Below the pieces are notes generated by a model that saw nothing but the letters and a program-made list of their open reading frames with translations, ran no database searches and was not told where the DNA came from. A program made the position numbers and the translations under genes. Positions 26,967-46,474 of a stretch of 64,000 bases of DNA are shown here, one piece after another; the first letter of the stretch is position 1; each line of letters begins with the position of its first letter. Origin of the DNA: Roseateles sp. XES5 (lineage in GTDB: Bacteria > Pseudomonadota > Alphaproteobacteria > Rhizobiales > Rhizobiaceae); NCBI RefSeq assembly GCF_020535545.1, contig NZ_CP084752.1, positions 3,809,501 through 3,873,500 on the forward strand. The letters run 5' to 3'.

Positions 26967-28060
26967 CAGTGCGCTCCGCCTTCGCTGGACCGGCCGAGGC
27001 GGGAGAAGACCAGCCGGATCTTGTATTGGATGAGCGTGTCGCAGGAGAGCACGAAGAACAGCAGCAGCCCCTGGAAGACACGCGTGACCTTGTCGGAGAC
27101 GCTGAGCGTCAGCTGCACCGCCTCGCCGCCGACATAGGTCAGCGCCAGGAAGAGGCCCGCCGCGATGATGCTCAGCGGATTGAGGCGGCCGAGGAAGGCG
27201 ACGATGATCGCGGTGAAGCCATAGCCGGGCGAAATGATCGGCTGCAGCTTGCCGATGGTGCCGCTGACCTCGGAAATGCCGGCAAGACCGGCGAGCGCGC
27301 CGGACAGCAGCAGCGAAAACCAGATCATGCGCTTGGAGGAGAAGCCGGCAAAGCGCCCTGCCCGCTCCGACTGGCCGAGCACGGTGATCTCGAAGCCCTT
27401 CAGCGTGTAGCGCATCATGATCCACAGGCCGATGGCGGCGATGACGGCGAAGGCGAAGCCGAGATTGGCCCGTCCCGAGGAAACGAGCTCGGGCAGGATC
27501 GCTTCCGGCGCGAAGTCGCGCGTTACGGGGAAGTTGTAGGCATCCGGGCTGCGCCAGGGGCCGCGCACCAGCCAGTCGAGGAAGAGCTGGGCGATATAGA
27601 CCAGCATCAGGCTCGTCAGGATTTCGTTGGTGTTCATATGCGCCTTGAGGAAGGCGGGAATGGCGGCATAAAGCGCGCCGCCGATCATGCCGAAGATCAG
27701 CATCAGCGGAAGGACGAGCGAGGAATGCCAGTCGTGGAAGACGACGGGCACGATGGCGCCGGCAATGGCGCCGGCGATGAACTGGCCTTCGGCGCCGATG
27801 TTCCAGTTGTTGGACCGGTAGCAGACGGAGAGGCCCACGGCGATCAGGATCAGCGGCGCGGCCTTGATGGCGATCTCGTGCAGCGACCAGACATCGAGCA
27901 GCGGCTCGATGAAGAAGCTGTAGAGCGCCGAGCCCGGGCTCTTGCCGAGCAGCGCGAACATGATGCCGCCGGCAATGACGGTAAGGCCCAGCGCCAGGAA
28001 CGGCGACAGCAGCGAGAAGAACGTGGACGGATTGGCGCGTTTTTCCAGTTCAATGCGCAT
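26966..28060 (-). CDS. Nucleoside-type ABC transporter permease 1
   Basis: 364-aa inner-membrane permease of the same family as its neighbour. It contains VCYRSNNWNIGAEGQFIAGA and the coupling-loop region FEITVLGQSERAGRFAGFS. About nine to ten transmembrane helices. Its ATG at 28060 lies inside the end of the ATPase gene (11-base overlap), and its stop overlaps the next permease start, indicating coupled synthesis of the complex. Confidence 0.9.
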   Translation of the reverse strand: MRIELEKRANPSTFFSLLSPFLALGLTVIAGGIMFALLGKSPGSALYSFFIEPLLDVWSLHEIAIKAAPLILIAVGLSVCYRSNNWNIGAEGQFIAGAIAGAIVPVVFHDWHSSLVLPLMLIFGMIGGALYAAIPAFLKAHMNTNEILTSLMLVYIAQLFLDWLVRGPWRSPDAYNFPVTRDFAPEAILPELVSSGRANLGFAFAVIAAIGLWIMMRYTLKGFEITVLGQSERAGRFAGFSSKRMIWFSLLLSGALAGLAGISEVSGTIGKLQPIISPGYGFTAIIVAFLGRLNPLSIIAAGLFLALTYVGGEAVQLTLSVSDKVTRVFQGLLLFFVLSCDTLIQYKIRLVFSRLGRSSEGGAH

Positions 28061-33915: not shown

Positions 33916-34665
33916 CTAGCCGATTTGCGAGAGAATGGGAAACGTTTGCTGGAACCAGATGGCGACGGCGCTGATATAGCCGAAGATGAAGGCGAGGCCC
34001 GTCAGGATGAGCAGCACGCCCATCAGCTTTTCCACCGTACCGAGATGGCGGCGGAAGCGCACAAGGAAGCGCATGAAGGCGCCCGAAAAGCCGGCGGCGA
34101 TCCAGAACGGAACGGCAAGCCCCAGCGAGTAGACGGCCAGCAACGCGGCCCCGTCGCCCACCGTCTCGCGCGCGGCGGCAACGCCGAGGATCGCGCCGAG
34201 CACCGGGCCGATGCAGGGTGTCCAGCCGAAGGCGAAGGCGAGGCCCATGACATAGGCGCCGGAGGCCGTTGCCGGCTTGCCGCCGCCCTGGAAACGCGCT
34301 TCGCGTGCAAAGAGCCCGATGCGCAGGATGCCGAGGAAGTGCAGTCCCATGAGAATGATGATGACGCCGCCGATCTGCGCGAGCACATCGAGATGCCTGC
34401 GCAGCACCATGCCGATCGTCGAGGCCCCCGCGCCGAGCGCGATGAAGACCGTGGCGAAGCCGAGCGTGAAGAAGAATGCCGCCAAGAGCACCGCCCCCCG
34501 CGCATCCCGCCGCACCGCCACCGCCTCGTTGCCGCGGAACTGATCCACCGAAATGCCCGCCATGTAGCACAGATAGGGCGGCACGAGCGGCAGCACGCAG
34601 GGCGACAGGAACGACAGGGCGCCGGCAAGAAGCGCGCTCAACAGGGAAATATCGGCAATCGACAA
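33916..34665 (-). CDS. ccdA: Cytochrome c biogenesis protein CcdA
   Basis: 249-aa membrane protein that carries reducing power from cytosolic thioredoxin to periplasmic apocytochrome/CcmG-type thioredoxins. Six hydrophobic helices and the two conserved cysteines are seen in LSPCVLPLVPPY and WTPCIGPVLG. The start is a TTG at 34665 (MSIADISLLSALLAG), with GGAG 7 nt upstream; longer frames have no ribosome site. This is relevant to the cytochrome c gene at 39.7-43.0 kb, whose haem attachment needs reduced cysteines, but there is no genetic linkage. Confidence 0.9.
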   Translation of the reverse strand: MSIADISLLSALLAGALSFLSPCVLPLVPPYLCYMAGISVDQFRGNEAVAVRRDARGAVLLAAFFFTLGFATVFIALGAGASTIGMVLRRHLDVLAQIGGVIIILMGLHFLGILRIGLFAREARFQGGGKPATASGAYVMGLAFAFGWTPCIGPVLGAILGVAAARETVGDGAALLAVYSLGLAVPFWIAAGFSGAFMRFLVRFRRHLGTVEKLMGVLLILTGLAFIFGYISAVAIWFQQTFPILSQIG

Positions 34666-34939
34666 GGGGTTACTCCAGGACGACCGGAGGAAGCGATCGC
34701 GGCAGCCCGCCCGCATCTCCATTTGCGCCCTCAGATAGCCCCGCCTTCCCTCTCCTGCCAATCACCTTTTGGAGAACGCGGCGAAATGTCGTTGGGGGAA
34801 CATGGGAGAGCTCATCGCTCTACGTACCTCAGGGTGAAAATCTGGGAGAACCAAGAAATGACATTAATAGTGGATACGTCGGGGACGTAGACACTATTGT
34901 AGCTCGTCCACACAGACAGCTATGTGTAGCGAGAGAAAA

Positions 34940-35346: not shown

Positions 35347-35422
35347 TGGTGAGCGCGCAGGGATTCGAACCCTGGACCTACTGATTAAAAGTCAGTTGCT
35401 CTACCGGCTGAGCTACGCGCTC
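35347..35422 (-). tRNA. tRNA-Lys (anticodon UUU)
   Basis: 76-nt cloverleaf on the minus strand. The acceptor stem is GAGCGCG/CGCGCTC, discriminator A, encoded CCA (35347-35349). The anticodon stem ACTGA/TCAGT encloses CTTTTAA, giving UUU. T-loop GGTTCGAATCC is normal. Confidence 0.97.
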
Positions 35423-35568: not shown

Positions 35569-37161
35569 TCAGTAGACCTGGTATTTCAACAGACCCAACG
35601 ACCAGTTCACGCTGCGGTTTTCGGTGTCGCGCGTCCAGGTCTGTTTCAGGGTGTCGGCGATCTCGGCGATGGTGGTGCGGGCGTCGAGTTCCTTGGTGAG
35701 GCCATAGTCGTTCGGCGCGACCTTGGTGAGATCGACGTCGTCGGCGACGACGATGGCGACAAGGACGTTCTCGCTCGGGCCGTCGGCCTCGAAATCGAAG
35801 CCGTAATAGTCGTCCGGGATGGTGAGCGGGGAATTCGCCGTCAGCGGCGTGATCTTCTTGGCCGCTTCGTTCGGGAAGATCTGCGTCGCCTTCCCGTCCT
35901 TGGCGACGTCGTAGAGGATGAGATGGCCGCTCGTCGTGCTCGTCACGGTGATGCGGAAGGAATCGCCGCTCTTCAGGTAGTCGGAGGATAGAGCCACCTT
36001 GACGTCGCCGGTCTGCGGCTTGCCGAGAATATCGCCCACGGCGTCGACCGGATCGGCCGCGACATAGGCGGTCTGCGCGGTGTTTTCGACCTTCACCTCT
36101 TCGACCTTGCCGTAGCTCGCGCTCTGGGTCTGCTGCTGGCTGTAATCCGGCGTCTGCTGCTGGGTGTCGCCACCCGTCTGCGGCTGCTGGTACTGCTGCG
36201 TCTGCTGGCCCGTGCCGGCGTCGGCGGGCGTGACGGCGCTGGCGCCGAGCAGGGCGTAATTGACCTCGAGCTGCGGGTCGAGACCCTGGCAGGCGCTCTG
36301 CGCCGCGCAATAGGTCTGCGACTGCTTCTTCACGAATTCCAGCAGCTCCGCATTGGAGACGATGCCGTTGCCGTTGCTGTCGGCGGCGGAAATCTCGTGG
36401 CCGTTGACATAGGAGAGCGTGAAAACGCCGTGGCGCTCTTCCGGCGGCAGGCGGGTATCGTCCCAGGCGACCTGGTAGGACGAGGCAGCGCTCCAGGCTT
36501 CGACGCCGTTCTGCTTGGCGATCTCCGGCTTGTCGACCACGGCGACATCGACGCGCAGGCCGCGCGTCTTCACCTGCTCCACGGGCTTGGCATGGGGACG
36601 CGGCAGGAAGCGCGCGCTTTCCATCGCCTCGCCCACCTGCGTGGAAAGCGAGCGCGAGATTGTGCCGGAATGGCAGGCGTCGATGACGATGGAGACGGCA
36701 CGGTCCTTCAGCTTGGCCAGCATCGCGTCGATGTCGTCGTCGAGAATGACATTCGTCCAGTCGCCGTCGCCAGCGGCGATGTCATAGGTCGAGAGCGCTT
36801 CATCGAGACCGTCCTCCTCGTCGCCGCTCACATCCTTCACCTGAAGGCCGTGGCCGGAGAAATAGATATAGACGCGGTCGCCGGGCTGCGTGCCGTTGAT
36901 CAGCCATTCGTCGATGCTGGCGAGAATGCCGGCGCGGGTCGCTTCCTTGTCGCGCAGCACGCGGATCGAATCGGCGGGGTAACCGAGCTTTTCCTTGAGG
37001 AACTTCTCGATCAGCGGCGCGTCGTTCTTCGGCCCTTCGAGGAACATCTTCTCCGGCAGCGAGGCATAGGTGCCGATGCCGATGACGAGGGCGCGGTCGG
37101 CGGCCTTCGCGCCCGAAAGAGCCGAAAGCGACAGCAGGAGGGCGGCGGCGTAACGGATCAT
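35569..37161 (-). CDS. Exported caspase-domain protease with DUF4384-like C-terminus
   Basis: 530-aa peptidase C14 (metacaspase-type) protein, probably periplasmic: signal peptide 1-20 (AKA). The catalytic dyad is visible as H104 in YFSGHG and C163 in DACHSG, with the acidic DEEDGLDE specificity loop near 114-122. An EF-hand-like loop DSNGNGIVSNAE lies at 261-272, suggesting calcium control as in metacaspases. A Gln-rich linker (315-350) leads to a DUF4384-like beta domain (about 385-475). The start overlaps the stop of the second caspase gene (TGATG). It is the last gene of the cluster cytochrome-OmpA-caspase-caspase. Substrate and trigger are unknown. Confidence 0.88.
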   Translation of the reverse strand: MIRYAAALLLSLSALSGAKAADRALVIGIGTYASLPEKMFLEGPKNDAPLIEKFLKEKLGYPADSIRVLRDKEATRAGILASIDEWLINGTQPGDRVYIYFSGHGLQVKDVSGDEEDGLDEALSTYDIAAGDGDWTNVILDDDIDAMLAKLKDRAVSIVIDACHSGTISRSLSTQVGEAMESARFLPRPHAKPVEQVKTRGLRVDVAVVDKPEIAKQNGVEAWSAASSYQVAWDDTRLPPEERHGVFTLSYVNGHEISAADSNGNGIVSNAELLEFVKKQSQTYCAAQSACQGLDPQLEVNYALLGASAVTPADAGTGQQTQQYQQPQTGGDTQQQTPDYSQQQTQSASYGKVEEVKVENTAQTAYVAADPVDAVGDILGKPQTGDVKVALSSDYLKSGDSFRITVTSTTSGHLILYDVAKDGKATQIFPNEAAKKITPLTANSPLTIPDDYYGFDFEADGPSENVLVAIVVADDVDLTKVAPNDYGLTKELDARTTIAEIADTLKQTWTRDTENRSVNWSLGLLKYQVY

Positions 37162-38756
37162 CAGAGCGTTTCCCGCGTGTAGAGAGGTTGAATGGCGACG
37201 CTCGCCTCCTTGCCGTCGAGGCGCGTCTTCAGCGCATCGAGCAGCGTCGCGGCGTTGACGTTGCGGTCGGACAGCACCGCGCCGATGGCATCGACCGGCT
37301 CGGTGGTCCAGATGGTGATGAGATGGTCGGCGCCGTAGGGCTTGACCACCTCGACATCGGTCAGCTTGAACTGCGAGCTGTTGGTCCCCGCCGCCTGCAT
37401 GTCGAGGAACTGCACTTCGCCCGTATTGGCGAGGTTGAAGACGAGCATGTTCGGATAGCGGCCGGGCGGTGCGTCGAAGCGCAGCCGGGTGCCGGCGGCG
37501 TAGATGTCCTTTGCCGGCGTCAGCGAGACGGAGCCGGGATTCTGGCTTGCCATGGCCTTCAGGAAATCGAGCAGGACGAATTTGTCCACCACGGCCTGAA
37601 TGCGGTCCTGACCGACATTTTCGGCGGCGACGTCGCCGTTCGGCGTGTAGAAGACGCCGCTCGCCACATCCCAGCGGAAGGGCGTGCCGGTGCCGTCTGC
37701 CCGGTCCGGCCGCGTGGCCTCGCCGTCGATCTGCAACGCGATCTTGCCGGTCCAGCCGAGATCGCTCGCCGGCTTGATCGCCTTGTCGGTCGCCGTGGTG
37801 CTGGCGGTATCGTTCGTCGTCGCTGTCCCGGCCGCCGTCCCTGTATCGGCTGTCGCGGTCTCGACCGGAATGCCGCGCGTCAGCCGCACGACCACTTCGC
37901 TCTCCGAGCGGGCGACCTGCGGCATGAAGTTCGGCACCTGCAACGCTTCGGACCGGTTCTTCACGTTGGAGAAGATGTAGTCTTCCAGCTCGATGCGCGT
38001 GATGATGCCGTCGCCGTCGCGGTCGGCGCTGCCCTCTACAGCCCGGGCGAAGCTCCAGCTCAGCGCGCCGCGCGGCTCGCCGTCGATGATGACCTCTGGC
38101 GTCGGCTGGCTTTCCAGCGAAGCGGCGAGCACCGTGACCTGCTTGAAGGCATTGTCCTTGAGGTTCGCGCCGTCGATCGCCTCCTGGGAGGGCGGCGCGA
38201 GCTTGACCTTGACGGCCGGCGCCAGCCGGCTCTTGCCCTTGATCGACCGGCTCATGCCGCCGGAAAAGCAGCTGTCTGACACGAAGAGCACATGCACGCC
38301 CTTGCCTTCGGCCTCGGCGAACCAGGCGTTCATCTCGTTGTCGACGATGATCTCGTTCGAGGTTTCCTGATAGCGGTTGCGGTCGAAGCCCGGCAGTTGC
38401 AGGAACTCGTCGAGCCCGTCCGCCTCGTCGCCGGCGATGAGTTCGGGCATCTGCGCGCCGTGGCCGGCATAGGTGAAGATGATCGTGTCGCCGGAGGCGG
38501 CTTCCGCCACCATGTCCGTCCAGGCCTTGCGGATATCGTCCTTGCGCGCCTGGTCGTTGGTGAACTTGACGACCTTGAAGCCGGCCGCGCTCATGGAGCG
38601 GTAGACGTCCTCCGCATCCCGGACCGCGCCGTCGAGGCTGACATCGTTCGGATACTGGTCGACGCCGACGACGAGCGCATAGGTCTGCGCCGCGAAAGCG
38701 GGAACGGGCAGCGCCACGGCAAGGGAAAGCGCGAGAAGCCGGGGAATTGCCTTCAT
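37161..38756 (-). CDS. Second exported caspase-domain protease
   Basis: 531-aa peptidase C14 protein with signal peptide 1-22 (AFA-A). Dyad: H99 in YAGHGAQ and C163 in SDSCFSGG; the DEADGLDE acidic loop matches its neighbour. An EF-hand-like loop DRDGDGIITRIEL lies at about 245-257. A Thr/Ala-rich linker (about 300-335) precedes a C-terminal beta domain of about 190 residues that could be a divergent DUF4384. It overlaps the OmpA-like gene upstream and the first caspase gene downstream by one base each, so all three are translated from one message. Sequence divergence from its neighbour implies an old duplication. Confidence 0.88.
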   Translation of the reverse strand: MKAIPRLLALSLAVALPVPAFAAQTYALVVGVDQYPNDVSLDGAVRDAEDVYRSMSAAGFKVVKFTNDQARKDDIRKAWTDMVAEAASGDTIIFTYAGHGAQMPELIAGDEADGLDEFLQLPGFDRNRYQETSNEIIVDNEMNAWFAEAEGKGVHVLFVSDSCFSGGMSRSIKGKSRLAPAVKVKLAPPSQEAIDGANLKDNAFKQVTVLAASLESQPTPEVIIDGEPRGALSWSFARAVEGSADRDGDGIITRIELEDYIFSNVKNRSEALQVPNFMPQVARSESEVVVRLTRGIPVETATADTGTAAGTATTNDTASTTATDKAIKPASDLGWTGKIALQIDGEATRPDRADGTGTPFRWDVASGVFYTPNGDVAAENVGQDRIQAVVDKFVLLDFLKAMASQNPGSVSLTPAKDIYAAGTRLRFDAPPGRYPNMLVFNLANTGEVQFLDMQAAGTNSSQFKLTDVEVVKPYGADHLITIWTTEPVDAIGAVLSDRNVNAATLLDALKTRLDGKEASVAIQPLYTRETL

Positions 38757-39649
38757 CAGTCGACGTCCACTTCCACCCGGCGGTTGAGCTGGTTCAGCGT
38801 CTCCGTGTCGTAGGCGCTGGCATCGTCCGGCTTGAAGGGTTCATCCTCGCCCTTGCCGATCGTGGTGATCGATCCGGCATAGCCGGCATTGGCGAGATAG
38901 ACCTTCAGCGTTTCGGCGCGGGCCAGCGAAAGCTTGTAGTTGGCGTCGGCCGAACCGACCGGGTCGGTGTGACCGATGAGCTTGATCGAGGCCGGCTTGA
39001 CCGACTTCAGGCATTCCCAGACGTCCTTTGCCGCCTCCATGCCTTCGGGCGTGAAATCGGCCGTGCCGAAGACATAGCGCACCGGCGTCGATTTCTTCTT
39101 GATCGACACGCCGCGGAAGGAGACCTTGCAGGGCCCGCGCAGGGCGAGCTTGACCGGGCGCGGCGCTGCCAGCCGCATTTCGCCGGCCAGCTTGTCGAGA
39201 CGCAGGATGTACTGTTCGTCCGGCGCCATCCAGTCCGGCGTCATCGTCTTGTTCGAGCCGTCTTCCAGCGCGATCTGGTAGAATTTCGCGGCGGCCTCGT
39301 ACTCCTTGCGCTCGCGGGCGAGATCGCCCAGCGCGTCGAAGACCTGCCAGGGGCCACCGTAATTGTCGCTGAGGGCTTCCAGCGCCTGCCGGTGGCTCGA
39401 AAGCTGGCCGCCATTGCCGACATCGGCCGCGATGTTGTTGAAGGCCGTGAGCGAGGCGATGCGACCGACGAGCGCGCGCTCGTCCGCCGTGCAATTCGCA
39501 GTCCCTGCCGTCGCGGCGAAGGATTTCGCCTGCTGTTCGTCGCCTGCGTTGAACGCCTCGGTGACGCCGGTCATGGCGTCGCAGGCCGCGGCGGCCGGTG
39601 CGGCGCCGGCCAGGACGAAGAGTGTCGCCGCTAAGGATCGCATCAACAT
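38756..39649 (-). CDS. OmpA-family peptidoglycan-binding protein
   Basis: 297-aa exported protein with a signal peptide of about 22 residues (MLMRSLAATLFVLAGAAPAA). Its C-terminal 110 residues form an OmpA/MotB domain: KPASIKLIGHTDPVGS, LSLARAETLKVYLANAGY and LNQLNRRVEVDV contain the conserved D and R that bind peptidoglycan. The middle region (YEAAAKFYQIALEDG) looks like one TPR-type repeat. It probably anchors the periplasmic complex to the cell wall. It is coupled by one base to the caspase gene. Alternative ATGs at 39667 and 39643 are possible. Confidence 0.88.
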   Translation of the reverse strand: MLMRSLAATLFVLAGAAPAAAACDAMTGVTEAFNAGDEQQAKSFAATAGTANCTADERALVGRIASLTAFNNIAADVGNGGQLSSHRQALEALSDNYGGPWQVFDALGDLARERKEYEAAAKFYQIALEDGSNKTMTPDWMAPDEQYILRLDKLAGEMRLAAPRPVKLALRGPCKVSFRGVSIKKKSTPVRYVFGTADFTPEGMEAAKDVWECLKSVKPASIKLIGHTDPVGSADANYKLSLARAETLKVYLANAGYAGSITTIGKGEDEPFKPDDASAYDTETLNQLNRRVEVDVD

Positions 39650-39681
39650 TGTCGGTTCAGCCCCCATAGTCCCAAAAGAAC

Positions 39682-39705
39682 GGCAGGGGCCCGAGAGCCC
39701 CTGCC
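39682..39705 (-). terminator. Strong hairpin between cytochrome and OmpA genes
   Basis: Stem GGCAGGGGC/GCCCCTGCC (9 bp) with a CCGAGA loop, followed on the minus strand by GTTCTTTTGG. It lies 8 bp after the cytochrome stop and 33 bp before the OmpA start, so it probably attenuates expression or protects the upstream message. Confidence 0.75.
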
Positions 39706-39712
39706 CTGTTCG

Positions 39713-42700
39713 TCACTTGATCTCGAACGTCACCATCTGGATGCCGCTCGCGCCGTTGCTCTGCTCGGCCTGCTTGGCGAGGTTGACGCTGAGGCCACGG
39801 GTCGCCGGCTGCTTCGAGCTCGCCACCAGTTCCTTGGCCTTTTCCGCCGTCAGCTTCTGGTCGCCGAGGCCGCCGATCTTGCACACGGCGATCATCGTTT
39901 CGCCGGCAGACGGCGAATCGAAGGTCAGGTTGCCGGTGCCCGGCTGCGGGATGAGGCGGCGCTCACCCGGGTTCAGCGTCGTGTTGCCGACCATCACGTC
40001 CGGGATGATCTCCACATTGCCAGTGTCCTCGACATAGACCACCTGCAGTTCGCAGGCATGGTTGGTGCTCAGCTCGAAGCTGAGATAGTCACCCACCTTG
40101 GCCGTGGTCGAAGGCACATGCAAGGCGAGTTTCACCTTGTCGGCCTGCGCCTTGTCGTCCTGCTTGTAGGCGGGAACGACATAGGCCGTGTTGGTCTGCG
40201 TCGCATACTGGTCCGTGCCGGAGGCCTGGCCCTGCGTCTGGCCCTGCTGCGTCTGGTCCGGCTGCTGGTAGGCCTGCTGGTCCTGCTTCTGCTCCGGCTG
40301 CTGGTATGCGGTGTTGTCGACCTTCGGCAGGACATAGCCATTGTTCGTGGCCGCCACCTCGGTGTTGACGCCGCGCTTCAGCGGACGCAGCTGCAGCAGC
40401 GGCTCCAGCATGAAGGCATACTGTTCTTCCACCTCGACGCGCGGAACCGTGGCGCCCGATTCGAGCGTCGCGACCCAGTCGATGCCAATGCGCAGGGCAT
40501 CGACGTCGGTCAGGCGGCGAATGTCGGAGGCGAACTCTTCCGGCGTCATGTCGAACTCGGAAGCAAGCTGCTCGAAGTTCAGCTCATCCTCGTACTTGTC
40601 GGCGAAGTAGGTGAAGATCTCCGCGCCGCCGGGTGCCTTGAGGCCCGTCTTGCCGCCGCCGGAGGTCGGTTCGGTGATGCCGAGGCGGTCGAGCGCGGCG
40701 ACGAAGCGGTCCGTGTCGCGCTTGTAGACCTCGTTCAGTTCTTCCTGCGGCACGTAGACCGCGAGCAACTCGTCCTGCTGGTCCTTGGAGAACAGCGTGG
40801 AGGTTTCGATATGCTCGCGCAGCTGGTCGCGCTTGGACAGGATGCCGTCGAAGTGGCAGTCGAAGCACGAACGGGCATTGACGATCTCGACACCCTTGCC
40901 GATCGGCCGCTTGCGGAAGGAGACGATCGTCGTCGGACCGACGTCGAGCTGGTCGCCCTTGTTGGTCGACAGATAGTAGCCCTGCATGCCGTTCGGGAGC
41001 GAGAAGATCATTTCGCCGCCGTCATGCTCGAAGGGGAGCAGGCCGGCCTTGAGACGAACGCCGTCGGGACCTGCCGGGAAGCGCTTGAGCACCTGGCGGC
41101 CGACATCGCCCGCAAAGTCGTAGGACTTCCAGTAGTAGCCGCCGAAGGGCATGTCGTGACGTTCGAGCATGCGGTTATGGTCGGAAACGCCCGAGGAACC
41201 GTCGGCAAAACCGGCGCGAACGATGCGGCGGCGTTCGATGTTCTGGTTGACGTTGACGCCGAAGCGGGTTTCCAGCTCGATGATGTTGGTCGGCAGCTTC
41301 ATGAGGCGGTTGTAGACCTTCGGCCGGGCACCGTTGCTCATGAACCAGTCGACGCGCATGATCGGAAGCTGGGTCTGGGTCGCCTTGGCGAGCGAATGCA
41401 GCTGCGCATCGCTTTCCGGATCGACACCATAGAAGTACTCGTTGATCAGGAAGTCGTAGTCTTCCTGGCTCCATTCGAGATCGCGCAGGTCGACGCGAAC
41501 GAGCAGGCCGTCCGAGCCTTCCACTTCCTCGGGCAGAACGAGTTCCGGACCGTAGGACAGCGAGTTCAGGAGCTTCTTGAAGCCGCCGGCGAGAACCTTC
41601 ATGCGCTTGAGGAAGGTCTCGTGCGTCTCGCAGCTCATCATGCCGTTATACTGGTCGCGATAGCTGAAGTAGCGCATGAACGGCTGGTCGTGCTCGTCGA
41701 CCTTGGAAATATCGCGTAGCGCGAGTTCCACGAAGTCGAGATATTTCAGCATCGGGCGGGCGCGCTCGGTCTTCGTCGCGGAGACCGCGGTCGGAATGGC
41801 CGACTGGCTCAGCGAGTTGATCCAGTCGGCAAGGCCCTGCACTTCGGCATCGGCGGGACGCTTGCCGAGCGGCATGCGACCACTGGTGACGGAGGTGTAG
41901 AGCAGCGACTTGGAGGCATCGCCCGGCGTCACGAAGGCAGCGTTGGCCGCGATCGAGGCAAGGTCGCCCGAGGGGAAGGAGCCCTGCGAGCTTTCGCCCG
42001 GGCCATGGCAGTTGCGGCAATATTTGCCGATGAAGGCATCCGCGGCCGAGGCGAGCTCGGCATTGCCGCCGCCCGCGCCGAGCGCGGTTTCGGCCGTCGC
42101 CTCGCTGCAAACCGGCGTGGGGCTGGTCTCGACCGGCGTCACCTTGACTTCACGATCCGAAAGGAAGGCGTACATCGCCTGCTTGTCCTCGTCGGAGAGC
42201 GCCGAGAGGCCGTGGGCGATGCGGCGCATGACCGGATCGGAGAGCGGCGAACCGGAAAGCTTCTTGCCGTCATCGATCAGGCCCTTGGTGAAGACCTCGA
42301 ATGAGGCAAGACCACTCATGCGGGCCTTGGTGATATCGGGCGCGACGGCGCCGGTCAGGCCCTTCTCGCCCTCATAGGCGCGCGCGAGGTCCAGGCCGTA
42401 GGTCGTGGTGCGCGGGGTGTGGCAATCGCCGCAGCCGCCGACATTTTCGACGAGGTAGCGGCCGCGTTCCATCTGCGTTTCCTCGCGCGGCTGGAAGGCC
42501 GGCACGGTGAAATGGCTGCGCTTCCAGAGCGTGATCGTCGTCTGGCGGCTGAAGGGGAAGGCAATCTCGTGTTCCTTCGAGGCGGCGTCCGACTGCGGCA
42601 GCGTCTCGATATAGGCTTTGATATCCAGTACGTCCTCCGGCTTCATGCCGCCATAGGAGGTGTAGGGCATGACCGGATAGAGATTGTCGCCGTCCTTCTT

Positions 42701-43045
42701 GAGGCCGACCATCACGGCGTTCAGGAAGTCCGCATTGGACCAGCCGCCGATGCCGTTCGGATGGGCGGAAATGTTCGGCGCGAAGAACTTGCCGATCGCG
42801 GTCTGCATTTCCATGCCGCCCGACAGCAGTTCGATATTGTCGCCGGAGCCATGGCAGGCGCCGCAGCCGGCGGCGCCGAACAGGACCTTGCCGTTTTCCG
42901 GGTCGCCCTTGTAGGTGCCGTAGGCATCCGAAGCGAACTGATCGATGGCGAATGCCCCGGCAGGACAGAAGACCGCCATGGCAAGGCCGAGCACGGCGGC
43001 AAAGCGCGTGCCCGGTCGGATGAATGATGTGCTGAACACGCGCAT
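39713..43045 (-). CDS. Periplasmic tetra-haem cytochrome c with Gln-rich linker and DUF4384-like domain
   Basis: 1110-aa exported protein. A signal peptide precedes about residue 33 (GAFA-I). Four CxxCH motifs bind covalent haem: 61-65, 205-209 and 343-347, in cytochrome-c domains with distal Met in PMPYTS-type or RMPLGK segments, and an isolated fourth at 727-731 (CFDCH) inside a large middle domain (440-900) of unknown fold. A Gln/Pro-rich linker (about 940-975) leads to a DUF4384-like beta domain (about 990-1090), matching that of the caspase at 35,569. The first two domains resemble diheme gluconate-dehydrogenase-type cytochromes. ATG at 43045 is preceded by GGGAA; the frame extends to 43105. 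It heads the cluster with OmpA and caspases. Confidence 0.88.
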   Translation of the reverse strand: MRVFSTSFIRPGTRFAAVLGLAMAVFCPAGAFAIDQFASDAYGTYKGDPENGKVLFGAAGCGACHGSGDNIELLSGGMEMQTAIGKFFAPNISAHPNGIGGWSNADFLNAVMVGLKKDGDNLYPVMPYTSYGGMKPEDVLDIKAYIETLPQSDAASKEHEIAFPFSRQTTITLWKRSHFTVPAFQPREETQMERGRYLVENVGGCGDCHTPRTTTYGLDLARAYEGEKGLTGAVAPDITKARMSGLASFEVFTKGLIDDGKKLSGSPLSDPVMRRIAHGLSALSDEDKQAMYAFLSDREVKVTPVETSPTPVCSEATAETALGAGGGNAELASAADAFIGKYCRNCHGPGESSQGSFPSGDLASIAANAAFVTPGDASKSLLYTSVTSGRMPLGKRPADAEVQGLADWINSLSQSAIPTAVSATKTERARPMLKYLDFVELALRDISKVDEHDQPFMRYFSYRDQYNGMMSCETHETFLKRMKVLAGGFKKLLNSLSYGPELVLPEEVEGSDGLLVRVDLRDLEWSQEDYDFLINEYFYGVDPESDAQLHSLAKATQTQLPIMRVDWFMSNGARPKVYNRLMKLPTNIIELETRFGVNVNQNIERRRIVRAGFADGSSGVSDHNRMLERHDMPFGGYYWKSYDFAGDVGRQVLKRFPAGPDGVRLKAGLLPFEHDGGEMIFSLPNGMQGYYLSTNKGDQLDVGPTTIVSFRKRPIGKGVEIVNARSCFDCHFDGILSKRDQLREHIETSTLFSKDQQDELLAVYVPQEELNEVYKRDTDRFVAALDRLGITEPTSGGGKTGLKAPGGAEIFTYFADKYEDELNFEQLASEFDMTPEEFASDIRRLTDVDALRIGIDWVATLESGATVPRVEVEEQYAFMLEPLLQLRPLKRGVNTEVAATNNGYVLPKVDNTAYQQPEQKQDQQAYQQPDQTQQGQTQGQASGTDQYATQTNTAYVVPAYKQDDKAQADKVKLALHVPSTTAKVGDYLSFELSTNHACELQVVYVEDTGNVEIIPDVMVGNTTLNPGERRLIPQPGTGNLTFDSPSAGETMIAVCKIGGLGDQKLTAEKAKELVASSKQPATRGLSVNLAKQAEQSNGASGIQMVTFEIK

Positions 43046-43148
43046 GGCTTGTTCCCTTCGCTCCAAGAGGCCGGCGCACCGGCTGGATAGTCGACTTTCA
43101 CACAATTCCGGATGAAGAACCGTTTTGCAGTTTCTTCGGGAACTGCTT

Positions 43149-44408
43149 TTACCGGAACTCGAAACGCTCGAACTCGACTCGCCGCGGGGCCTTGCCGAGT
43201 TCCTTCAATCCCTTTTCGATGGCCATCCGCAACGGCGGCGGGCCGCAGAACCACAGGTCGGCTTCCGCCGGATTCATGCTGGTGCCGGAGACGAGCTTCG
43301 AGGCGTCGAAGCGGCCGTCGGTTGCCGAGTTGTGCAGCACGAAGCTGAAGTTCTCGAGCTTTTCGGCCTGCGCGCGGAAGGTATCGAGGCCGATCGCCTC
43401 GGCACCGTCGCGCACGCAGTAGACCATGTGGATATCCTGCCCCTCGTCGCCTTTCAGCCGGCTCGCCATGGCGAGGAACGGCGTGACGCCGATGCCGCCG
43501 GCAAGCCAGATCTGCTTCTTGCCGCCGCGCTTGTGATTGAAATGGCCGTAGCCGCCTTCCAGCGTCAGCTCGTCGCCGACCGCCACGCCCTCGCGCAGCG
43601 CCTTGGTATAGTCGCCGAGCGGCTTGATGGCGAAGCGCACGGTGCCGTCGTCATCGATGCCCGCGATGGTGAAGGGATGCGGCTCGCGCAGGCCCGACTT
43701 GTCGACGCGGAAAAAGCCGAACTGGCCGGGCATCGCGTTGAGCTTGCGCCCCTTCGGCTTGCCCGTGATGATCGTCGCCCCGTCGTGGCGCACCACGTCG
43801 GCGACCTCGTATTTGCGCGTGCGCAGCCAGGGCAGAAGCTGGGTATAGGCGTAGCTGGCGATGCCGATCAGCGCGAAGAGGTTGAGATAGGTCGCCAGCA
43901 GCGCGGTGCCCTCGTAGGGGCGCTTGATGAACATCTGGTGGAAGGCGACCAGCACGAAGAGCAGGCCGATGAAACGGTGCGTGATGCGCCAGTACTGGTA
44001 GGGAATCTGGAAGCGCGTCTTGGGGATCACCTTCACCAGGCTGAAGATGAGCAGGAAGACGAAGCCGTAGAAGGCCCATTCGCCCGCGGTCTTGGCGAGC
44101 ACGTTGAGGCCGCTCGTCAGGGAAAGCCCCTGGAAGTCCGGCGCCACGAAATAGTGCACCAGGATAAGACAGAGCACGGCGATGCCGATCTTCCGGTGGA
44201 ACTGGTAGATTCGGTCGAGGCCGCCGAAGAGCTTCTCGATGAACGGCGGGCGCGTCGCCATGAACTGCGCGATGCCCATGGCGACGAAGGCCATGGACGA
44301 CGCCATCAGCGATAGCGTGGTGCCGAGATTGGTATGGCTGACGGCCGGTACGGCCAGCAGACCGGCGAAAACGATCAAGAGTGTCGCGACGATTGAACCC
44401 GCAGTCAA
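43149..44408 (-). CDS. Ferric-reductase/NADPH-oxidase-like flavocytochrome
   Basis: About 419-aa membrane protein. The N-terminal half has six transmembrane helices with paired haem-ligand histidines (FHRKIGIAVLCLILVHYF and THRFIGLLFVLVAFHQMF). The C-terminal half is an FAD/NAD(P)H reductase: HPFTIAG for FAD, GGIGVTPFLAMA for pyridine nucleotide, and a terminal FCGPPPLR. Electrons would pass from cytosolic NAD(P)H across the inner membrane. It stands just upstream of the tetra-haem cytochrome gene on the same strand, which is a plausible periplasmic acceptor. The start is uncertain: TTG at 44408 with GGGGG is preferred; ATG 44528 and 44609 give non-membrane-like N-termini. Confidence 0.85.
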   Translation of the reverse strand: MTAGSIVATLLIVFAGLLAVPAVSHTNLGTTLSLMASSMAFVAMGIAQFMATRPPFIEKLFGGLDRIYQFHRKIGIAVLCLILVHYFVAPDFQGLSLTSGLNVLAKTAGEWAFYGFVFLLIFSLVKVIPKTRFQIPYQYWRITHRFIGLLFVLVAFHQMFIKRPYEGTALLATYLNLFALIGIASYAYTQLLPWLRTRKYEVADVVRHDGATIITGKPKGRKLNAMPGQFGFFRVDKSGLREPHPFTIAGIDDDGTVRFAIKPLGDYTKALREGVAVGDELTLEGGYGHFNHKRGGKKQIWLAGGIGVTPFLAMASRLKGDEGQDIHMVYCVRDGAEAIGLDTFRAQAEKLENFSFVLHNSATDGRFDASKLVSGTSMNPAEADLWFCGPPPLRMAIEKGLKELGKAPRRVEFERFEFR

Positions 44409-44834
44409 CGTATGCCCCCACAAATGCAACTGGACGGTCCGAGCGTGGGCATGCTGGCAAGGCCCAAGACATTCGTCAACCGCAATCCTCCTATCGACGG
44501 GCAGCCCCACGGCTTTATTCGGGTGCATTTTCCGAAGGCGGAAAAAACTGCGGCAAAAGCCTAATATGGCAATGGAACGAGACACATAGAAATAGACGCG
44601 AAACGGCACACATCCCTTATCGCAGGTTGTCTCTCACCGCCCGTTTCTTCACGCTATGCGACGGTCGGCGCGCCGGCGCTCCTGCGCAAGCCGCCCACCC
44701 AGACACCTCGCCAAGGCCTTCAAAAGCAGGCAAATGGCCCTCCCGTCAGCCGCGCCATCGCCTCTGATATATCAGCCGGCTTGCCATCCGTTTTGCGACA
44801 TGGCAGCATGTGATATATCAACTGGACTTCTGGA
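44409..44834. other. Intergenic region with GntR operator candidates
   Basis: 426 bases between the divergent flavocytochrome and GntR genes; the in-frame extension of the flavocytochrome here is not protein-like. The right end holds two copies of the palindrome TGATATATCA (44765-44774 and 44811-44820), 46 bp apart. Nothing else is visible. Confidence 0.5.
44765..44820. promoter_or_regulatory. Two TGATATATCA palindromes, probable GntR operators
   Basis: Perfect 10-bp palindrome repeated at 44765-44774 and 44811-44820, immediately upstream of the GntR start (44835). Such sites fit autoregulation by a FadR-type GntR protein, and could also govern the divergent flavocytochrome gene. Confidence 0.7.
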
Positions 44835-45455
44835 ATGACGGAAACCGCGGCTTCGCAGGCCCACCTCGCCTATCTCACCCTCGAAGGGCTCATCGTCACG
44901 CTCAAGCTGAAACCCGGCTCGATGGTGACGGAACGCCAGCTGATCGACCTTGCGGGCCTTGGCCGCACGCCGGTGCGCGAGGCGATCCAGAAGCTCGAAT
45001 GGCAGGGCCTGATCGCCGTGCGCCCGCGTGCCGGCCTGCAGATCGCGGCGATTCGGCCGGAAGACCACGCCGAGGTGATGACGACGCGCCGGCAACTGGA
45101 GCCGCTGGCCGCCAGCCTCGTCGCCGACCATGCGGACGAGCGGCATCGTGAACAGCTCGTCGCCTGCGCGCAGACGATGACCGCCTGCTCCATCCGCTCC
45201 GACATGGAAGGTTTTCTGGCGGCTGACAAGGCGTTCGACGAGATTCTCGAAGAAGCCTGCCCGAACCGATTCCTGACCGCCGCCCTCGCCCCCTTGCAGA
45301 CCCATGCCCGCCGCCTGTGGTTCGCACGCGCCGACAACCGGCACATGGACCGCTCGGTGGACCTGCATGTGAAGGTCATCCGCGCCATCCGCAACGGCGA
45401 CGGCGCCGCCGCCGCGGGCGCGATGACGGATCTTCTCGACTATCTCTCGGGCTAA
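44835..45455 (+). CDS. GntR family (FCD domain) transcriptional regulator
   Basis: 206-aa regulator. Winged helix in residues 10-70 (LKPGSMVTERQLIDLAGLGRTPVREAIQKLEWQGL) and a C-terminal FCD domain with EEACPNRFLTAALAPLQTHARRLWF. It starts at ATG 44835, 15 bp behind the second TGATATATCA palindrome. It is divergent from the flavocytochrome/cytochrome cluster and so is a candidate regulator of that cluster; the downstream fpr gene is on the opposite strand. Ligand unknown. Confidence 0.88.
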   Translation: MTETAASQAHLAYLTLEGLIVTLKLKPGSMVTERQLIDLAGLGRTPVREAIQKLEWQGLIAVRPRAGLQIAAIRPEDHAEVMTTRRQLEPLAASLVADHADERHREQLVACAQTMTACSIRSDMEGFLAADKAFDEILEEACPNRFLTAALAPLQTHARRLWFARADNRHMDRSVDLHVKVIRAIRNGDGAAAAGAMTDLLDYLSG

Positions 45456-45462
45456 AAACGAA

Positions 45463-45486
45463 AAGGGCGGCCCGAAGACCGCCCCT
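45463..45486 (-). terminator. Terminator between GntR and fpr genes
   Basis: Stem GGGCGG/CCGCCC with 8-nt loop (45465-45484); followed on the minus strand by TTTTCG. It lies 24 bp beyond the fpr stop and beyond the GntR stop on the other strand, so it can end both. Confidence 0.8.
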
Positions 45487-45509
45487 TGCCGATGAGAATG
45501 CCCGTTCGC

Positions 45510-46322
45510 TCAGTCGACGAAGGCGCGTTCGATGACGAATTCGCCGGGCTTGTTGTTGGCGCCTTCCGTCAGGCCGGCCTGCTCCAGCAATACCTTGGTT
45601 TCCTTCAGCATGGCCGAGGAGCCGCAGATCATGCCGCGGTCGACCGCGGGGTCGAAGTGCGGCACGCCGAGATCGGCGAACATCTTGCCGTTGCGGATGA
45701 GGTCGGTGATGCGGCCCTGGAACGGATAGTCCTCGCGGGTGACCGTCGCATAGTGGCGCAGCTTGTTGCCGACGACTTCCGACAGGAATTCGTGGTTGCG
45801 AATCTCCTCGACGAGATCGAAACCATATTGCAGTTCGGAAACCTCGCGGCAGGTATGCGTGAGGATGACCTCGTCATACTTCTCGTAGGTCTCCGGGTCG
45901 CGGATGAGGCTCGCGAAGGGCGCGATGCCCGTGCCGGTGGAGAACATGTAGAGCCGCTTGCCGGGCGTCAGCGCGTCGAGCACCAGCGTGCCGGTCGGCT
46001 TCTTGCGCATCAGCACGGTGTCGCCCGCCTTGATCTGCTGGAGATGCGAGGTCAGCGGACCGTCCGGCACCTTGATCGAGAAGAACTCCAGTTCCTCGTC
46101 CCAGGCCGGGCTTGCGATCGAATAGGCGCGGTAGACCGGCTTCTCGCCGACCATCAGGCCGATCATCGCGAACTCGCCGGAACGGAAGCGGAAGCTTTCC
46201 GGGCGCGTCATGCGGAAGCGGAACAGGCGATCCGTATAGTGCTGTACGCTCGTCACCGTCTCGGCGAACACGCCGGCGGGTACGGATGCCACAAAGTCTT
46301 CGGTCTTGGCAGGTGCGTTCAT
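45510..46322 (-). CDS. fpr: Ferredoxin/flavodoxin-NADP+ reductase
   Basis: 270-aa FAD enzyme shuttling electrons between NADPH and ferredoxin or flavodoxin. FAD-binding RAYSIASP, NADP-binding GTGIAPFASLIRD and C-terminal VIERAFVD are as in bacterial subclass I Fpr. ATG at 46322 (MNAPAKTEDF) is the expected start. Located behind the sulfite-reductase operon, whose single-subunit CysI takes electrons from ferredoxin, so Fpr is a plausible supplier. An FNR/FixK-like box lies 150 bp upstream. Confidence 0.93.
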   Translation of the reverse strand: MNAPAKTEDFVASVPAGVFAETVTSVQHYTDRLFRFRMTRPESFRFRSGEFAMIGLMVGEKPVYRAYSIASPAWDEELEFFSIKVPDGPLTSHLQQIKAGDTVLMRKKPTGTLVLDALTPGKRLYMFSTGTGIAPFASLIRDPETYEKYDEVILTHTCREVSELQYGFDLVEEIRNHEFLSEVVGNKLRHYATVTREDYPFQGRITDLIRNGKMFADLGVPHFDPAVDRGMICGSSAMLKETKVLLEQAGLTEGANNKPGEFVIERAFVD

Positions 46323-46474
46323 TTCGGGATCGATCCTGGCTGCGTCGGAAAATCTTGACGATAGGCAGATATTACATGTTGAGCGGCAAAGGAAGGTATT
46401 CCGTTCCAATGCGCCGATTGGCCGCGCAATAGTTTGCCGCGCGTCTCTTTTCCCGCAAGCCGCAATGCGTGTCC

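Follow-up and report, generated by a model that had tools for sequence, protein, structure and literature searches.

What brings a flavocytochrome, a multihaem cytochrome, an OmpA-domain protein and two caspase-fold proteases together in one row of genes is the question raised by a locus of Roseateles sp. XES5 (GTDB lineage Rhizobiales; Rhizobiaceae). The locus lies in a 64,000-nucleotide stretch of a 5.8 Mb genome (contig NZ_CP084752.1, positions 3,809,501 to 3,873,500), here called the window, and consists of five consecutive minus-strand genes designated, in 5' to 3' order, FRE, CYT, OmpA, CASB and CASA. An original prediction, made from the letters alone, had proposed that electron transport, OmpA and caspase-fold proteases are joined here at the cell envelope. 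Here we report that this gene link is real, that the five-gene arrangement is more than chance, and that Shinella, Ensifer and soil bacteria akin to them have kept the set. Our preferred reading, to which we give a probability of about 0.4, is that the operon encodes a peptidoglycan-anchored, calcium-dependent periplasmic proteolytic complex, the activity of which would be tuned by electrons from the cytoplasm.

Gene order and conservation of the locus

The five open reading frames stand where the original prediction had placed them (Table 1), and the coordinates bear out its one-base overlaps among the last three genes, with one base common to OmpA and CASB and one to CASB and CASA. Conservation close to home was assessed with CASB and CYT as queries against 61 genomes. 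Of the 21 genomes of the genus, 19 have both proteins and the remaining 2 have neither. Among 37 genomes of the family, CYT was detected in 23 at E<=1e-60 and CASB in 22 at E<=1e-30, and all 22 genomes with CASB also hold CYT at these limits. The single family CYT without CASB comes from a fragmented genome that is 85% complete (G021), and two genomes (G027, G033) gave weaker, partial caspase matches only. The nearest named relatives of CYT belong to Shinella.

Thirty-five loci from named genomes, retrieved with CYT as the query, carry FRE adjoining CYT in every case (35/35, the frame being split in L096; L and G numbers are our labels for loci and genomes), and OmpA plus two caspases follow CYT in 32. 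In L092 and L095 OmpA is upstream and a different caspase lies directly 3' of CYT, with another before FRE in L092; in L094 OmpA is upstream and there is no caspase within 14 kb. The median gap is 0 bases between OmpA and CASB (40 loci) and -1 between CASB and CASA (41 loci), counts in which some genomes appear twice and starts were chosen by script. Split frames, through decay or sequencing error, were seen in FRE, OmpA and CASB of L096 and in CASB of L068.

The distribution further away was followed with gene calls from our own hidden Markov models on stop-to-stop frames; three candidates per genome were scored in the CASB order search and four in the CYT-domain order and phylum searches, and the E-value limits and a loose first look can miss distant copies. 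The CYT haem domain was found in 45 of 397 genomes of the order (23 of 142 genera) and, in a sample drawn from the window's own phylum, in 3 of 398 (own genome included), all of the same class. Forty of 48 further places with the domain were fetched (left out were G404, G213, G367, G427, G416, G380 and second copies in G149 and G072), with short or cut contigs in L104, L105, L115 and L124. In these 40 loci a caspase lies in the gene chain in 14 and anywhere in the stretch in 21, and OmpA in 17 and 27, respectively. FRE is present in 7, namely in 7 of the 14 loci with a four-haem CYT and in none of the 26 with a two-haem CYT, a pattern in keeping with electron supply from FRE to the tri-haem module. 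CASB relatives at E<=1e-40 were found in 37 of the 397 genomes, 17 of which also have the CYT domain against 4.2 expected (Fisher p 1e-8, a value that overstates the association because genomes share ancestry). All CYT-negative genomes among them were inspected (L047-L049, L138-L154): 12 hold OmpA and then two caspases, the second carrying DUF4384 in 11, and the other 8 hold a lone caspase or other combinations.

The link also re-forms in other shapes. Where caspase counts exist for the genome (16 loci, first-look counts), chance would place 0.66 caspase genes near CYT; 12 were observed, spread over 7 of the loci. Caspases of another motif class take part in L092, L095 and L158; L050 has one upstream and CASB downstream, and on a Neorhizobium plasmid the order is caspase-OmpA-FRE-CYT, the caspase being of another motif class. 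Two arrangements (L111, L112; L114, L116, L117, L118, L125) place a two-haem CYT beside OmpA and the metacaspase pair. Since the partners re-associate though gene order and caspase class change, this is stronger evidence of a functional link than one conserved order. Two modules, one for electrons (FRE-CYT) and one for proteolysis (OmpA-CASB-CASA), seem to be joined in one cluster in this family, and in Shinella their seam may be marked by the GC hairpin in the CYT-OmpA spacer. Similar hairpins occur in the Shinella spacers inspected and other GC hairpins in L073, L075, L077 and L084; the spacer has just 6-13 bases in 12 of 40 loci.

Table 1. Positions of the five genes, of the CYT domains and of neighbouring features in the window
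Feature	Position	Strand	Start	Length or residues	Description
FRE	43149..44408	minus	TTG	419 amino acids	NOX/FRE-like flavocytochrome b
CYT	39713..43045	minus	ATG	1110 amino acids	c-type cytochrome; signal-peptide-like start
CYT, tri-haem module				~36-416	
CYT, haem domain	40331..41728	minus		440-905 (approximate)	Without family name; one CxxCH
CYT, linker				~893-967	Probably disordered
CYT, C-terminal domain				~968-1110	DUF4384-like
OmpA	38756..39667	minus		303 amino acids	OmpA-domain protein; signal-peptide-like start; OmpA domain C-terminal
CASB	37161..38756	minus			Metacaspase-type; signal-peptide-like start; dyad H99/C163; EF-hand-like loop 245-256
CASA	35569..37161	minus			Metacaspase-type; signal-peptide-like start; dyad H104/C163; EF-hand-like loop 261-272; C-terminal DUF4384
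Upstream block of FRE	44451..44523	minus			GAATAAAGCC element and TTGACG/CAGCAT promoter-like pair; read by eye
GC-rich hairpin	39682..39705	minus			Between CYT and OmpA
Genes upstream of the operon	44835-46409	plus; minus			GntR-type regulator (plus), ferredoxin-NADP reductase-like gene (minus); named by reading
tRNA-Lys (TTT)	35347-35422	minus			Directly downstream of CASA
CcdA-like membrane protein	33916-34761	minus			Named by reading
tRNA-like gene	27726-27822	plus			ARAGORN; odd four-base anticodon

The encoded proteins

In its longer reading of 486 amino acids FRE contains the domains Ferric_reduct (PF01794), FAD_binding_8 (PF08022) and NAD_binding_1 (PF00175), all above the Pfam cut-off, and its residues 26-418 match the structure of SpNOX (8qt6, E 3.4e-40). 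The His pairs H71/H85 and H144/H157 are kept in 100% of 45 sequences and would, following the homology with SpNOX, be the haem ligands. With two His pairs, a membrane domain and FAD and NAD(P)H domains, FRE can be placed by its sequence among NOX-like enzymes. The GAATAAAGCC element was found in 11 of the 12 upstream regions of FRE that were inspected; the exception, Ensifer L074, keeps TTGACG and not the element. Together with a TTGACG/CAGCAT-like pair it was seen in the Shinella loci inspected, Rhizobium L073 and Pararhizobium L077 and L084, while the automatic promoter scan did not report the TTGACG/CAGCAT pair. The 12-base element CGAATAAAGCCG has a single occurrence in the whole genome, upstream of FRE, and a private regulator for the operon is therefore possible. 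The GntR-type and reductase-like neighbours further upstream are kept in many Shinella, Ensifer and Pararhizobium loci.

CYT had been described as a tetra-haem cytochrome. Its four CxxCH motifs were found, at residues 61, 205, 343 and 727, and its architecture is corrected to a tri-haem module, a separate haem domain and a DUF4384-like domain. The N-terminal module has the three c-type haem motifs that mark tri-haem dehydrogenase cytochromes; no partner dehydrogenase subunit is among the operon neighbours, and CYT is called a homologue rather than a member of that group because these neighbours are FRE and OmpA. All parts of the five proteins match known families by sequence except the haem domain, for which neither Pfam, queried with the window member, nor a sequence search of the PDB returned anything at E<=1. 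Across 15 sequences the domain has the conserved blocks SGVSDHNRM-ERH, GGYYWKSYDF, DGGEM-FSLPNG and RSC--CH. The haem-domain query matched 462 proteins, and a query including the DUF4384 part matched 2003, not all of which need carry the haem domain; a large cytochrome family is thus revealed, its haem domain without a Pfam name. The DUF4384-like C-terminal domains of CYT and CASA are related (hhalign E 4e-6, probability 87). One CYT relative, P0097, has an extra formylglycine-generating-enzyme domain (PF03781), a domain also described as fused to archaeal orthocaspases (PMC6426788).

The OmpA-domain protein matches PF00691 at E 4.8e-11, and its GHTD, LS--RA and RRV motifs, conserved in 40 sequences, contain the residues that we take to bind peptidoglycan. 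For the two proteases the claimed caspase fold stands, and their class is refined to metacaspase-type by the best match to solved structures: CASB matches PF00656 at E 4.3e-15 and metacaspase-1 (4f6o) at E 3e-14, and CASA matches PF00656 at E 1.2e-18, 4f6o at E 3e-25 and, in its C-terminal domain, PF14326 at E 6.7e-13 (49 bits, above the cut-off). The 4f6o matches cover p20, and for the p10 segment a second stretch in CASB reaches only 6 bits. The predicted dyads are invariant in alignments of 18 (CASA) and 17 (CASB) chosen sequences, window proteins included, and so is D161, the Asp of the DxC motif, an acidic pocket residue that presumably confers specificity for Arg or Lys. At the DUF4384 edge of CASA, residue K381 is Lys in 14 of 18 sequences and Arg in the other 4, which makes it a possible self-processing site.

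In a tree of 75 caspase domains, built from 27 pairs, picked because their second protein carries DUF4384, and no more than 21 further caspases, all 27 CASA proteins fall in one clade (support 0.988) and all 27 CASB proteins in another with two outsiders (support 0.862), a pattern that fits an old duplication kept side by side. By motif calls decided by patterns rather than alignments, GH and DxC are both kept in 27/27 CASB and 19/27 CASA proteins, and the EF-like loop pattern in 23/27 of each; calcium dependence is predicted from these EF-hand-like loops, and in the window both proteases look active. The signal-peptide-like starts claimed for the exported proteins are present, as judged by inspection. 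The accompanying claim that bacterial caspases are usually cytosolic found no support: this genome encodes seven more caspase-domain proteins, and six of these begin with a signal-peptide-like sequence (after choice of an internal start for L002 and L006; the seventh, L007, gave no clear result), so export is ordinary here, and the unusual feature of the operon is the partner, not the location.

Proposed mechanism and rival explanations

By homology, FRE would take electrons from NAD(P)H and pass them, by way of FAD and two b haems, to the periplasmic side, where the tri-haem module of CYT may accept them and hand them on to the haem domain, acting as a sensor or an enzyme. The step from FRE to CYT is plausible because SpNOX reduces cytochrome c directly in vitro, under argon too, as described in PMC5676040. 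The related DUF4384 domains of CYT and CASA could dock both to a shared partner, and the OmpA protein would keep the assembly at the wall. The output would be the calcium-loaded metacaspase pair, cutting after Arg or Lys and switched by the redox state or the product of CYT; within the pair the dedicated catalytic role seems to belong to CASB, and CASA seems to be a docking and regulatory member able to lose its activity, although active-looking in this family. Starting from the anatomy, conservation, co-occurrence, tight spacing, intact dyads, calcium-type loops and old paired duplication seen here, we infer both the coupling of electrons to proteolysis and the direction of control; a redox-triggered protease system at the envelope, as originally suggested, is possible.

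A number of observations weigh against such a complex. Caspases are absent from the chain in 26 of the 40 sampled CYT loci and from the whole stretch in 19, and 20 of the 37 genomes with a strong CASB relative have no CYT domain. The original expectation that neighbours are conserved and that the caspases do not occur mostly without CYT and OmpA is borne out within the family (22/22) and only in part outside it. FRE and CYT occur without the protease pair in L094, L097 and L099-L101, and CYT without FRE is found in every one of the 26 two-haem loci and in L103-L109 (of which L105 is truncated by a contig end), while the hairpin between CYT and OmpA in Shinella could mean that the halves are two transcripts. 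For the docking step, the DUF4384 score of CYT is 23.1 bits against a Pfam cut-off of 27, and neither Pfam nor profile comparison found DUF4384 in CASB, among the relatives of which two distant ones alone gave weak matches below the cut-off. For the catalytic step, the GHG/GHA-type motif, the D-x-C motif or both are missing from CASA in 8 of the 27 pairs (L114, L116, L117, L118, L125, L152-L154), so that two active proteases are not general, and 4 CASA and 4 CASB proteins of the 27 pairs lack the EF-like loop pattern.

These facts could also reflect two independent envelope stress functions under shared regulation, an explanation we regard as doubtful. FRE and CYT would then be an electron-export or reductase system, the haem domain of which reduces a small substrate, e.g. 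peroxide or metal, and OmpA, CASB and CASA a separate wall-surveillance protease set, the two being co-located as both answer the same stress. Such a division agrees with the occurrence of each half without the other in other genomes, with the hairpin between the halves in Shinella and with the enzyme-like richness of the haem domain in invariant polar residues, but it sits poorly with two-haem CYT proteins that lack FRE and still stand beside OmpA and the paired metacaspases in two orders, and with the domain type that CASA and CYT have in common. Maturation or trimming of CYT by the metacaspases, e.g. by a cut before the DUF4384-like domain, had been offered originally as an alternative and now appears very improbable. 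The linker at ~893-967, which is of low confidence and probably disordered, would suit such a cut; however, no linker column is Lys or Arg (both letters used) in at least 90% of 48 sequences, a measure that would miss a shifting site, the conserved K381 of CASA suggests self-processing instead, and each partner occurs without the other at the frequencies given above for chains without a caspase and CASB genomes without CYT.

We consider it unlikely that the locus is a self-killing or defence module, in which the NOX-like enzyme would make superoxide and the metacaspases would break down the envelope when the cell is injured, attacked by phage or in contact with a rival. The NOX-like nature of FRE fits this idea, as do the match of the generic caspase model of PADLOC to both proteases and the CASB-type metacaspases near type VI or type IV secretion genes on two Azospirillum plasmids (L009, L010). 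PADLOC, however, names no further component, two of the five proteins being matched and no named system called; the upstream reductase-like and GntR-type neighbours are kept in many Shinella and Ensifer loci, for which reason the locus looks vertical rather than mobile, and the CYT haem domain was matched in 1 of 72,556 plasmid records. Returning to the electron-tuned proteolytic complex, it is also rather improbable that metacaspases in the alphaproteobacterial periplasm are gated directly by whether a c-type cytochrome is oxidised or reduced. If true, bacteria would possess a cytochrome c/caspase-fold switch, located in their counterpart of the mitochondrial intermembrane space, and cytochrome c domains would be functionally linked to caspase-fold proteases outside animal apoptosis; an origin independent of the animal apoptosis pathway is the default assumption.

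Known systems and neighbouring genes

To our knowledge the function of bacterial metacaspases is largely unknown, and we know of no named system that could be the parent of this one. Our literature search found no description of metacaspases combined with a cytochrome and a NOX-like enzyme in one system, a statement on the combination and not on a proven mechanism. Conserved gene order and repeated re-association connect one specific metacaspase pair with a defined electron-transfer chain and with a wall-type OmpA protein, and they do so in soil bacteria that are kin of genetically tractable rhizobia; how a bacterial metacaspase is switched, and at which place it acts, thereby becomes an experimental question.

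Metacaspase operons were surveyed by Asplund-Samuelsson et al. 2012 (PMC3501461), who report OmpA in 14 of 217 operons and multi-metacaspase operons in Alphaproteobacteria among others, leave the function of 70 operons without assignment, and describe 46 metacaspases with no additional domain in which one N-terminal helix may be a signal peptide. In contrast to the present locus, the word 'cytochrome' is absent from the main text of that survey, and its section 13 has no NOX/FRE partner. The alphaproteobacterial pseudo-orthocaspases described in PMC6426788 resemble CASA in combining a caspase fold with a C-terminal DUF4384 in Rhizobiales, and differ in their Gln-Cys pseudo-dyads and trypsin domain, whereas the window has intact dyads and a cytochrome partner. 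The second members of the eight pairs with incomplete CASA motifs are possible pseudo-protease subunits, and those of L152-L154, without the GH motif, may belong to the pseudo-orthocaspases. SpNOX (PMC5676040; 8qt6) is like FRE in its near full-length homology, two His pairs and FAD and NAD(P)H domains, but it is described as reducing oxygen, and partly cytochrome c directly, in vitro, whereas FRE is adjoined by a dedicated multihaem cytochrome. The N-terminus of CYT resembles the cytochrome c subunits, likewise with three haems, of membrane-bound dehydrogenases for fructose, aldehyde and alcohol (7w2j, 8gy3, 8gy2), from which CYT differs by its fused haem and DUF4384-like domains and by a neighbour that is NOX-like and not a dehydrogenase. 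CASA and CASB have in common with yeast Yca1 and C. glabrata metacaspase-1 (4f6o, 7qp0) the p20 core, the His/Cys dyad, the DxC Asp and GDE-DG-D, and differ in being exported, in the EF-hand-like loop and C-terminal domain, and in a p10 segment that is not clearly aligned.

Other gene groupings were seen along the way. In R. etli plasmid p42e (L011, 6913-16698) a DUF4384 protein, a caspase, a trypsin-like protease, a serpin and a kinase stand in a row, proteases and inhibitor together, a cluster comparable to the pseudo-orthocaspase systems of PMC6426788. L138 and L135 have six and four caspase genes, respectively, in one chain around the OmpA-metacaspase set. In the window, the CcdA-like protein encoded ~800 bases downstream of the operon could serve cytochrome maturation, and its gene is kept in many Shinella loci. 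ARAGORN placed a tRNA near the site of the tRNA-Lys gene, on either strand, in 7 of 20 related loci scanned.

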